NCBI GenBank assembly: GCA_903904755.1
Contig: CAIVDV010000064.1
Span: 1 to 64,000 of the forward strand
DNA from: an uncultured Acidobacteriaceae bacterium
GTDB taxonomy: Bacteria > Acidobacteriota > Terriglobia > Terriglobales > Acidobacteriaceae
Direction: 5' to 3'
DNA: 64,000 nt
Shown here: in pieces, positions 17,100-20,476 of the stretch
Layout of the letters: each line of letters starts with the position of its first letter
Position numbering within the stretch: the first letter of the stretch is position 1
Position numbers and translations under genes: made by a program
Notes under the pieces: model-generated
Seen by the model: only the letters and a program-made list of their open reading frames with translations
Told to the model about the DNA's origin: nothing
Database searches by the model: none

Positions 17100-17332
17100 C
17101 ATTACGGATTCGCGCCATCATCAACCAGCACCCGGAATATCTTTTGGTAACCAGATTTCCCGGGTTATGCTGTCTGTGGTTTCCCTCATCTTTGTCGCTC
17201 CTTGGGCAAAGTTTCCTGCCGGGAATAAAATAGCCCGGTACATCCAAACCCGCTTGCGCACGCCCCAGGCTGGTTTCCCCCACCGATTTCCTGAAGCCAT
17301 CGCGCTTTCGGGAGAAATTGGCGTCTTTCACC

Positions 17333-19366
17333 ATGCTTGACGATTATCAAGTCCCGGCGGCAGCACTCGTTACTGCTCTGCTGCTCGCCTTCGGATACCT
17401 CGACCACCACTTCCGCAGCCCGCGCATCCGCCTCTGGATGCTTGCCATGCTCTGCGTCGAGGTACACTCCCTCTTTTTCTGGCGCGTCAGCAACAGCCAT
17501 TCCACCATCCTCCCCTGGGCCTTCAGCGGTGACCTCTCCCCCGCCAGCCCCTGGATGGCCGTCGTAGCCGAAGTTGCCCTCATGGTCAGCTCCGCGCTCT
17601 TCCTCGCCTCCCTCTCGCCACTCACCTTCCGCATCGGAAAAATGCGGATCATGTACGTCGTCCCCTACACCATCCCTCTCATCCTCTACTCCGTCCTCGT
17701 CTACTCCTTCGGCCGCGTTCCCGGCCACCTCTTCTGGGTCTATGTCGGGCTCGCCGTTTGGGTGCTCATCGCTGGCATGGCATGGAGCATCTCCCGCGGA
17801 ACCCTTCCCATCTGGCTCTCCTGCCTCATCGTCAGCGTCGCCGCCATCTGCAGCCTCCCCTTCTACCTCTACGGCAACGTCTACTGGCCCCTTCGTGTTG
17901 TCCAGTCCGGCAACATGCTCATGACCGCTCTGCTCGTCATCTACACCTTCCGACGCCTCACCCCCGGCGTCCTGCTTACCTCCCTCGGCTTCCTCGCATG
18001 GTCGCTGCCGCCGTTCTTCGGTCTGGAGTCCAACTCCGGCCTCTCCATACTCGCAATCTCCCTTGCACGCGCCATGATCCTCGGCAAGGTCGTCGTCGCC
18101 ATCGGACTCATCCTCATCGTCGTTGAAGACGAAATCGCCAAAAACCAGCTCGCCCGCCACCGCGAGCGCCGCGTCCGCCTCGAACTCGAAGCCTACGCCC
18201 GACAGGCCCTCACCGCACGCAACCTCGAAGAATTCGATCGCGAATCCGGAAAAATCTGCGCCGCCATCGTCCAGCACAGCCGCTTCACCCGCGCCGCCCT
18301 GCTCGCCCGCACCAACCAGGACTCCTTCACCCTCATCGGCGCCGCCGGTATGGATGGCGCCACTGTCGCTGCACTCGACGCCCTCGCCCAGCGCCTCGTT
18401 CCCGAAGCATTCAACCTCAACGGCCCTCGCATCGCCACCGACTCCAACACCCTCGACCTCGACCTCACCCCCTGGCTCACCCCAGGCGACGACCTCGAAC
18501 GCCTCCGCCTCACCCGCGTCGGCGCAGTCCCCATGCTCGGCCCGGAACGCACCGTCGAGGGCGCTATCTTCCTCTCCGGCCTCCGCCATCCGCAGGAAGA
18601 TCCCCGCGCGGATGACCTCCTCCCCGTCGAAGCGCTCGCGGGGCGAGTCCAGGCCGCCCGCTCCCAGGCACTCATGCTCGGCAAGCTCATTGACTCCGAG
18701 CGATTCGCCGGCGTCGGACAGCTCGCCACCAACGTCGCCCAGCAGCTCAACAACCCTCTCACCGTTATCCTCGGCTACGCCGCCATCCTCCAGGATGCTG
18801 TCGCCCATACCCACGACTTCCGAGCCGCAGAAACCATCCTCGTCGAAGCCCGCCGCATGAAGGCGCTCCTCGAGCGCATCGCCATGTTCTCCCGCCACTC
18901 CACTGAGCGATATTCCAGCTACTCCATCGCCGATCTCATGTCCGATATGGAGCAACTCCACCGCATGGAGTTCCTCACCCACGCCATCGACTTCCACATG
19001 CGCGTCGCCCCCAACCTCCCCGAACTCGTCGGCAACGCCCACCAGGTCCGCCAGTCCCTCATGCACGCCCTCCAGTGGGCCATTGAAAGCGTCGAGCGCC
19101 TCAGCTCCGACCAGGCCCGCGAAGTCCGTCTCGAGGCCACACCGTCCAAAGTCGGTGTCTGCGTCCTCATCGGCCACTCCGGCCGCGGCTTCGCACACCC
19201 TGACCGCGCCTTCGACTCCCTCTCCACCGGTGTCATGGGCACCGACGCCACCACCATCGGCCTCAGCCTCTGCGCCGCCATCATCCGCGAACACCAGGGC
19301 GACATCGAGGCCGTCAACCTCGAACCCTACGGCGCCGCCGTCCTCCTCGAACTCCCCTCAAACTAG
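17333..19366 (+). CDS. Membrane-bound histidine kinase homologue lacking catalytic residues
   Basis: A 677-aa protein: seven or so membrane segments (1-~265), a GAF-like sensor region (~285-440), then HisKA- and HATPase-like regions. The H-box aligns as VAQQLNNPLTVILGYAA, so the phosphoacceptor His and following acidic residue are Gln (Q470, Q471). The N-box segment reads LMHALQWAIES, with Trp in place of the Asn, and the G1 segment IGHSGRGF has His where the ATP-binding Asp is expected. All three catalytic features are therefore lost. It is probably a non-catalytic sensor or scaffold. No response regulator is adjacent. A TTG at 17318 is an alternative start. Its TAG stop overlaps the end of a MITE-like element. 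Confidence 0.75.
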   Translation: MLDDYQVPAAALVTALLLAFGYLDHHFRSPRIRLWMLAMLCVEVHSLFFWRVSNSHSTILPWAFSGDLSPASPWMAVVAEVALMVSSALFLASLSPLTFRIGKMRIMYVVPYTIPLILYSVLVYSFGRVPGHLFWVYVGLAVWVLIAGMAWSISRGTLPIWLSCLIVSVAAICSLPFYLYGNVYWPLRVVQSGNMLMTALLVIYTFRRLTPGVLLTSLGFLAWSLPPFFGLESNSGLSILAISLARAMILGKVVVAIGLILIVVEDEIAKNQLARHRERRVRLELEAYARQALTARNLEEFDRESGKICAAIVQHSRFTRAALLARTNQDSFTLIGAAGMDGATVAALDALAQRLVPEAFNLNGPRIATDSNTLDLDLTPWLTPGDDLERLRLTRVGAVPMLGPERTVEGAIFLSGLRHPQEDPRADDLLPVEALAGRVQAARSQALMLGKLIDSERFAGVGQLATNVAQQLNNPLTVILGYAAILQDAVAHTHDFRAAETILVEARRMKALLERIAMFSRHSTERYSSYSIADLMSDMEQLHRMEFLTHAIDFHMRVAPNLPELVGNAHQVRQSLMHALQWAIESVERLSSDQAREVRLEATPSKVGVCVLIGHSGRGFAHPDRAFDSLSTGVMGTDATTIGLSLCAAIIREHQGDIEAVNLEPYGAAVLLELPSN

Positions 19367-19646
19367 GGCCTGTTCCCACTACCGGGATGGATGGCGTTGC
19401 GAGCGTGAATCGGGCCAGGCAATTCTGGGCACGCAAGACCGAGCCCGAGAGCTGCGGCGACCCCACCGCCGAGGGCGAAAACGCAGTATGGCCCGATTTG
19501 CGCCGCAACCCGAAGGGACGGGGCCAGTTTTCCCCATTTCTGCGTCGCGCCTCGCTTCAGTAACCAGTTACAGCGCACTCGTCGTTTCTTGAACTGGGGA
19601 AAACTCCTCTCCCGTCGCCACCACTCAGGTAGTGGGAACAGGCCCT
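19365..19646. mobile_element. MITE-like element with 19-bp perfect terminal inverted repeats
   Basis: The left end GGGCCTGTTCCCACTACC (19366-19383) is the exact reverse complement of the right end (19628-19645), extended by one more matching base on each side. Between them are ~245 bp with no convincing gene but a second internal 11-bp inverted repeat, AGTTTTCCCCA (19526-19536) / TGGGGAAAACT (19595-19605). Size, perfect ends and lack of coding potential fit a non-autonomous miniature inverted-repeat element. No clear target-site duplication is visible. The left end supplies part of the TAG stop codon of the upstream kinase-like gene. Confidence 0.75.
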
Positions 19647-19770
19647 GACCCCCTGCGCCAGCGGCCCGCCACCCCAGGCCGCCACTGGCGCACCCTCCCC
19701 CGGGCCTGGCCCCCAGTCCTCCCCCTCGACCCCCCAAATCCCCCACCCAAAAAATCTCTCAAGATTTCTC

Positions 19771-19799
19771 TTGACTTCATTGACTCTATTTTGTAGAGT
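19771..19799 (+). promoter_or_regulatory. Sigma-70-like promoter with embedded palindromic operator
   Basis: TTGACT (19771-19776), a 17-bp spacer and TAGAGT (19794-19799) form a reasonable -35/-10 pair for the gene starting at 19853. A perfect inverted repeat ACTCTA-N5-TAGAGT (19783-19799) covers the spacer and the -10. Such a site is where the winged-helix regulator encoded in this operon (20469) would be expected to bind for autorepression. Confidence 0.6.
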
Positions 19800-19852
19800 T
19801 CTCTTCATCGAGGAACACTCTACGAAGTTCCCCGCCGAAAGGAACCTCCACC

Positions 19853-20476
19853 ATGACCGATTCCAACAGCTCCCCTGCCGACACCGCTGAACTCCGCGAG
19901 CGCCTCGCCATCATCGAGTCCATGCTCACCGAAGGCCGCTCCAAAACCGAATCCTGGGGATGGAGCTTCGTCGTCTGGGGCGTCGCCTACTACGTCGCCA
20001 CCGCATGGGCCACCCTCGGCGAAGCCAAATTTGCCTGGCCCATCACCATGCTCGCCGCTGCCGCCATCACCTCCATCGGCGCATTCAAAACCCGCGAGCA
20101 CCAGGCCGAAACCACCCTCAGCCGCGCCATCGGCATCATCTGGATGGCCATGGGCTGCTCGCTCTTTGTCATTTGCATCTGCGTCGCCTCCAGTGGCCAC
20201 GCCGAGCAGCATGTCTTCCTCGCCATGATTGAGACCGCACTCGGCACCGCCAACGTCACCTCCGGCGCGCTCCTGCGCTGGCGCGTACAAATGCTGGTCG
20301 GCATCGCTTGGTGGGTGGCGGCGGCATCCACATGCTTTGCCTCTATCCCCCAAACCGGATACATCTTTCTTGGCGCCATCTTTGTCTGCCAAATCCTCTT
20401 TGGCATCTACATGATGGTTGGCGAAGCCAGACAGCGTCGCGCCAGCGCCGCGCGCTCCGGTGCCAGCCATGCCTGA
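19853..20476 (+). CDS. Integral membrane protein of unknown function in regulator operon
   Basis: A 207-aa protein with a short charged N-terminal helix (ELRERLAIIESML) and about five hydrophobic segments (for example FVVWGVAYYVATAWATL, WPITMLAAAAITSIGAF, IGIIWMAMGCSLFVICICV, FLGAIFVCQILFGIYMMV). No catalytic motif is recognised. Ribosome-binding site AAAGGAA precedes ATG 19853. It overlaps the downstream winged-helix regulator by 8 nt, so the pair is co-translated, an arrangement common for small membrane proteins controlled by a cognate HTH_34/PadR-like repressor. Confidence 0.65.
   Translation: MTDSNSSPADTAELRERLAIIESMLTEGRSKTESWGWSFVVWGVAYYVATAWATLGEAKFAWPITMLAAAAITSIGAFKTREHQAETTLSRAIGIIWMAMGCSLFVICICVASSGHAEQHVFLAMIETALGTANVTSGALLRWRVQMLVGIAWWVAAASTCFASIPQTGYIFLGAIFVCQILFGIYMMVGEARQRRASAARSGASHA

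Follow-up and report, generated by a model that had tools for sequence, protein, structure and literature searches.

A 280-bp element at the 3' end of a histidine-kinase-like gene in the window, by which we mean the whole 64,000-nucleotide stretch of uncultured Acidobacteriaceae DNA analysed, is likely to be a non-autonomous, MITE-like DNA transposon that is moved in trans by IS5-family transposases, keeping a folded core while re-acquiring its ends. We observed many copies of it with precise ends and mostly TA-type flanks, IS5-family ends in relatives that match its own, a branched fold, and nearly the same cores joined to different ends. A broader reading, which we put forward tentatively, is that it belongs to a superfamily of parasitic elements that spans phyla and is defined in the long run by its folded DNA core, not by its ends, the core being selected on either strand and repeatedly capturing IS5-family ends; because ends of different IS5-family transposons are captured, the core would outlive any single transposase and cross phyla. 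The original prediction, which described a MITE-like element whose end forms the stop codon of the upstream gene, is partly supported as a whole. What it chiefly missed is a conserved folded core whose ends are exchangeable.

The features of the element are collected in Table 1. The predicted size of 280 bp holds, and no transposase ORF was seen inside the element in the window sequence or its ORF list, again as predicted. The terminal inverted repeats pair perfectly over 18 bp, or over 19 bp including the flanking A and T; the predicted 19-bp perfect ends are thus correct on the second count, though the string printed with them had 18 letters. An inverted-repeat search of the window returned 26-nt arms at 19365-19390 and 19621-19646 that are 88% complementary, and in shuffles of the window the 18-mer GGGCCTGTTCCCACTACC had a mean of 0.03 matches at up to three mismatches. 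Inner inverted repeats are present too (19403-19417 with 19489-19503, 87%; 19526-19540 with 19591-19605, 93%), but they are longer than the single 11-bp palindrome that had been proposed. RNA-fold z-scores were -8.2 for the plus strand and -6.6 for the minus strand, and none of 200 shuffles folded as well on either strand.

Table 1. Coordinates of the element, its parts and the adjoining gene in the window
Feature	Position	Strand	Basis or remark
Histidine-kinase-like gene (HisKA, HATPase_c) upstream of the element	17318..19366	+	ORF and domain matches
Whole non-autonomous element, 280 bp	19366..19645	+	paired ends; copies elsewhere terminate at the same bases
Left terminal inverted repeat GGGCCTGTTCCCACTACC	19366..19383	+	perfect pairing with right end
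Right terminal inverted repeat	19628..19645	-	reverse complement of GGGCCTGTTCCCACTACC, zero mismatches
Left flanking TA	19364..19365	.	presumed target dinucleotide; bases 1-2 of the TAG stop
Right flanking TG (TA expected)	19646..19647	.	read from window sequence
Arm A of folded core, closed by GTTGCG / CGCAAC	19396..19509	+	21 basal-helix pairs, 9 double-sided changes
Core motif CCGCAACCCGAAGGGACGGG with CCC-GAA-GGG mini-hairpin between arms	19503..19522	+	served as search query
Arm B of folded core, closed by GGACGGGG / CCCGTC	19517..19616	+	19 helix pairs, 9 double-sided changes

The kinase ORF ends in a TAG at 19364-19366, and the element starts on the G of that codon, confirming that the left end lies inside the stop codon. 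The proposal that the insertion redefined the C terminus fails on comparison with relatives: the six closest kinase orthologues, which belong to other same-genus genomes and lack the element, stop at the same position as the window gene, with the C termini LPIS*, LPVS*, LPIS*, LPVS*, LPIS* and LPTT* versus LPSN* here. In three of these six, a TAG stop follows C or T. Seven remoter orthologues (40-49% identity), likewise element-free, extend about six or more residues further, and element end tips were found at none of the fetched loci of these 13 same-genus orthologues. On this evidence the element entered the TA of the stop codon; because it starts with G, the TAG was rewritten and the protein length kept. 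In our view, then, the element is MITE-like, belongs with the IS5 family and lies in a stop codon that its arrival did not destroy. Several other copies are also placed at the last codons of genes. In-frame stops for ORFs of at least 300 nt are supplied by 23 of the 116 element ends tested, a raw count with no chance baseline that divides into 14 left and 9 right ends and in which some ORFs are possibly spurious. A further class, copies lying 'inside ORF', comprises 26 of 50 and is inflated by spurious long ORFs; among 18 of the 26 that were inspected, four ORFs stop exactly at the junction and five more within eight codons.

A DNA search placed the element at 13 sites in its own genome. Four of these lie within contigs and the other nine extend past a contig end, so that the element seems to break draft assemblies. 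Real matches occur in nine of 14 same-genus genomes, with best-match identities of 68-78% and some of them partial; one of the remaining genomes has a 20-bp match only and four have none. Outside the genus the same search yielded only matches of 23-25 bp, in two of 26 genomes. The search of the genome and its relatives that the original prediction called for thus yields further copies, which occupy different loci, and the alternative of single-copy ends at one position shared by every relative does not describe an element that is multicopy and absent at the 13 kinase-orthologue loci. Together with the TA-type flanks and the match of its ends to same-genus IS5-family elements, this supports its predicted identity as MITE-like, mobile and many-copy.

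The flanks point to a target sequence. Among 29 left ends read within the genus, 27 have YTA followed by GGGCC or nearly so, and at the right end TA comes next in 17 of 24 copies and TG in four. A wider set of 58 elements, from which 13 of 71 paired-end elements were left out as their ends could not be set, gave CTA 31, TTA 8 and CA 14 on the left and TAG 27, TAA 10 and TG 16 on the right; no flanks other than TA, CA or TG were admitted by the end-finder, and other bases cannot show in these tallies. As most flanks read YTA, element, TAR, a TA target duplication is suggested, and insertion at YTAR with the TA duplicated seems the natural reading; since no empty-site pair was found among the element loci examined, the duplication itself is unproven. 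In the 58 copies the flanking TA is more variable at its outer base, giving CA at left ends and TG at right ends, than at its inner one, a comparison biased by the end-finder, and the inner A/T may for this reason belong to the element.

Several observations concern the fate of single copies. Remnants of 18-49 bp built from two element end tips occur in two genomes, G003 and G014, and once in the element's own genome (L081 2927-2959, L084 2986-3015, L087 3010-3039, L089 2426-2474, L098 359-376 and L099 2840-2863); TA follows all six and precedes five, and they probably reflect loss of the hairpin interior by deletion. Two copies in one metagenome-assembled genome (MAG; L175 and L210 in JOPF035) have a common right flank and different left flanks, which suggests recombination or misassembly at the element. 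A full copy lies at 8782-9048 of L314, within a 134-kb IMG/VR viral contig; plasmid and phage records held no match to two element queries.

The ends identify a candidate helper. Over 16 bases the left end of the window element agrees at 15 with an IS5-family left end GGGCCTGTTCACACTA in the relative G002 and at 14 with GGGCGTGTTCACACTA in G014, and copies in its own genome that have CAC instead of CCC reach 16/16 and 15/16, respectively. In G002, GGGCCTGTTCACACTA opens the reading frame MELTEAQYERIKEALP..., which is interrupted by the contig end, and another contig of this genome starts with the 3' part of such a transposase and a right end, then TAA. Complete IS5-family insertion sequences (IS) with GGGCNTGTTMACACTA-like ends and two reading frames were found at 13 loci in other genera of the same family, with lengths of 814-824 bp at 12 of them (one has masked bases), YTA on the left in 12/13 and TAR on the right in 13/13. 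The proteins of one, L128, match PF13340, PF01609 and NF033580 (IS5 family), the second frame scoring above the NF033580 cut-off and the first just below it. A full-length IS with the predicted ends thus exists in other genera, with fragments in G002 and G014, but not in the window's own genome, where we found no transposase with matching ends; the anticipated transposase elsewhere in that genome was located only in relatives. Perhaps IS copies were collapsed in the draft assembly, or the family has been orphaned there. As movers we also considered IS630-type transposases (PF13358), for which the two genomes richest in copies, G000 and G003, gave no match, and DUF4096 transposases (PF13340) of the genus, which are lacking in the same two genomes; none of 14 DUF4096 loci fetched from other same-genus genomes showed a recognisable pair of element-type ends. 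Beyond the ends, the element core gave no blastn match at E 0.01 to five IS5-family IS.

A second end type, GGGTGTATCGACATAT, is carried both by elements and by IS5-family IS (L287 in G235 and L296 in G244). L289 and L300 in G233, the genome of the elements L189 and L171, bear a slightly different form of it with one end seen. When 14 element/genome entries were compared with 30 of 38 IS5-type loci, only for L189 did an IS with similar ends turn up; for the other 13 there was no convincing match among these loci.

The core reaches far beyond the genus. Scanning genome contigs with the 20-base core motif CCGCAACCCGAAGGGMCGGG, a query that selects for its own conservation, returned at least 115 stretches, where by our own arithmetic about one would be expected by chance, and the remainder of the branched core, which is about 230 bp in all, is also common to the matches listed. 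Recognisable paired ends accompany 71 of the 115 stretches listed and are lacking in 44; they occur, among the matches listed, in 51 of 82 with Acidobacteriota-type titles and in 20 of 33 with other titles. The 20 paired-end elements outside Acidobacteriota comprise, again among the matches listed, 14 labelled Betaproteobacteria or its orders (including the isolate Nitrosovibrio tenuis Nv1 and a MAG labelled Bordetella), three labelled Gammaproteobacteria and one each labelled Phycisphaera, Longimicrobiales and Omnitrophota. These hosts rest on record titles, 19 of the 20 being MAGs and one the Nitrosovibrio isolate, and we take the labels to stand for Betaproteobacteria, Gammaproteobacteria, Planctomycetota, Gemmatimonadota and Omnitrophota. 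A Roseococcus match (L229) without paired ends looks like chance.

By eye, at least a dozen distinct end sequences occur among the matches listed; besides GGGCCTGTTMACACTA they include GGGTGTATCGACATATA, GGGTGTGTCATCAAACTCC, GAGCCTGTTATSCCC, GAGCCTGTCTCAATAATA, GGAGCCTGTCGGGCTTGCT and others. In selected pairs, cores are 82-92% identical where the ends are 35-50% identical, against a yardstick of 49% for shuffled cores. Two Acidobacteriaceae elements, L180 and L246, share 92% of the core and 45% of the first 20 nt, and for L171 and L189 the figures are 87% and 50%; this last pair comes from one MAG, which therefore carries two end types, and both match IS5-family ends. Seven elements whose ends were trimmed or misplaced (L190, L203, L212, L218, L219, L254 and L258) were left out of this comparison. 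The contrast belongs to particular pairs and not to the whole set: after elements of more than 88% identity had been collapsed (87 to 49), the ends of all 49 non-redundant elements fell just a little short of the core in conservation (0.67 versus 0.72). An interior common to several labelled phyla combined with differing ends is the reverse of the usual MITE pattern, and here lies the novelty of the family.

An alignment of 17 copies folds into a branched structure consisting of an end stem, arm A, the CCC-GAA-GGG hairpin and arm B. The folds of both strands have 79 pairs in common, 32 of which have changed on both sides. Double-change cells number 114, compared with 41.7 in shuffled data (none of 500 shuffles reached the observed value) and 5-23 when the alignment was slid; the arms fold separately and every larger helix covaries. 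Across 29 element pairs we counted 23 compensated doubles and 14 others, where 8.8 doubles would be expected if the two sides were independent. In close pairs (identity of at least 0.966), paired columns held 22 single changes, two uncompensated doubles and no compensated ones, and young copies thus appear to decay freely. Seven duplicate rows were excluded from both counts. Since single changes come first in close pairs, arm-to-arm copying by template switching is not favoured as the sole cause of the covariation. Among the core columns of the 49 elements, conservation is higher at unpaired than at paired positions (0.74 versus 0.67), indicating that sequence matters too.

In some proteobacterial copies each arm can be recognised as an inverted duplicate of the other. 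The likeness between arm A and the reverse complement of arm B exceeded that in every one of 200 shuffles for L232 (57), L272 (42) and L247 (27), and barely so for L187 (23), with shuffled means near 14; in the other nine of 13 elements tested the likeness did not rise above shuffles. In L232 and L272 it extends to a common ATATCGCGAATAT loop. Small palindromic inserts resembling CGGGGTCCCC or GGGGACCCC, possibly another repeat family, are nested in loops or arms of some copies (arm A of L248; arm B of L176, L179, L242 and L245; also L186 and L220), and L210 and L263 are 315 long like L248.

A fold kept as RNA is expected to favour G-U pairs on its own strand. On pairs present in both strands' folds, G-U and A-C were about equally common, 25 versus 21 in the genus and 75 versus 82 in the wide set, and 13 versus 13 among states common within subfamilies (L011, with its damaged right end, was dropped from these strand counts, and the seven duplicate rows from the last). 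As a yardstick, 15 tRNAs gave 25 versus 0, a figure biased by the tRNA finder. As no strand bias appears, the fold is in our view maintained at the DNA level; judged from these base changes, the core looks like DNA and not RNA.

The strand counts bear most directly on the possibility that the element is a mobile structured RNA (a regulatory RNA, a ribozyme or a 3'-end stabiliser) for which the IS5 ends are only a vehicle. Strong covariation of the core pairs would suit such an RNA, as would the excess of columns at least 90% identical among unpaired core positions (22/122, against 5/72 paired) and the number of copies directly behind genes. We nevertheless regard it as quite unlikely, given the parity of G-U and A-C where tRNAs are one-sided, and given ORF stops that adjoin the left and the right side of the element and therefore show no clear orientation preference. 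Rfam likewise gave no match for 19000-20000 of the window at E up to 1; at the gathering score the elements in 18 loci had none either, the sole match there being a tRNA elsewhere. A fixed terminator or structural repeat, immobile and occupying one shared position in every relative, would account for strong hairpins on both strands and for a position directly behind a gene; with none of 13 same-genus kinase-orthologue loci carrying element end tips and with copies at differing loci, it is already refuted as the main explanation, and we give it hardly any weight.

An ordinary MITE of a single origin, formed by deletion in an IS5-family element, would have a fold that is a by-product of inverted repeats and ends that differ by ordinary divergence. 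Ends matching IS5-family IS, the deletion remnants and the uncompensated decay of young copies all agree with this origin, which we consider unlikely on the following grounds: the selected pairs with similar cores and dissimilar ends are unlike uniform divergence, compensated doubles exceed the number expected for independent sides, the arms fold separately with covariation in all larger helices, and the cores find no counterpart in the five IS5-family IS beyond the ends.

According to the preferred explanation, a non-autonomous transposon with a retained core, IS5-family transposases of the NF033580 type with two reading frames would act in trans, recognising the outer 16 bp or so of the element, inserting it at YTAR and presumably duplicating the TA. 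The core may be retained for what its hairpins do for the element at the DNA level, whichever strand they are on; they might, for instance, provide signals for binding or folding when the element is excised, or help it to survive beside genes. New ends would be acquired repeatedly to fit whichever IS5 lineage the host carries. On the usual view, the fate of a non-autonomous element is tied to the one transposase whose ends it bears. If the explanation is true, a constant interior with changing ends is a way to switch helpers, persist for long and cross phyla, and what a transposase-free element needs of its interior becomes testable.

We found no published description of the element, and its core 14-mer is absent from the papers searched, a collection lying mostly outside subscription journals. 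Among known systems, the IS5-family IS (NF033580 type, DUF4096 and DDE, two frames) share with it the outer 16 bp or so and the YTA/TAR flanks and differ in being about 820 bp long with a transposase. ERIC and Correia/NEMIS resemble it in TA-type insertion, stable folding and size; by description they are set apart by confinement to narrower groups and by one set of ends. Both are named among structured intergenic repeats in the consulted part of a paper on BRE (PMC3110155). BRE, a betaproteobacterial repeat of about 90 bp that is usually intergenic and partly in tandem arrays, with paired ends not mentioned in that part, is similar in that our family is also repeated in records labelled Betaproteobacteria, but differs by description in size and layout and was rejected as the identity of the element (PMC3110155). 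A 2024 review of prokaryotic MITEs covers, in the sections consulted, ordinary MITEs (PMC10969869). MITEAba12 is alike in being short and transposase-free, with many copies and paired ends common to an autonomous IS; in the part of its description consulted, a target duplication is present, where for the window element one is only inferred, and the terminal inverted repeats are its most conserved part, with only 10 bases conserved across all 90 copies (PMC6382973). Unlike MITEAba12 as described there, the family in the window keeps its interior across labelled phyla and exchanges its ends (PMC6382973).
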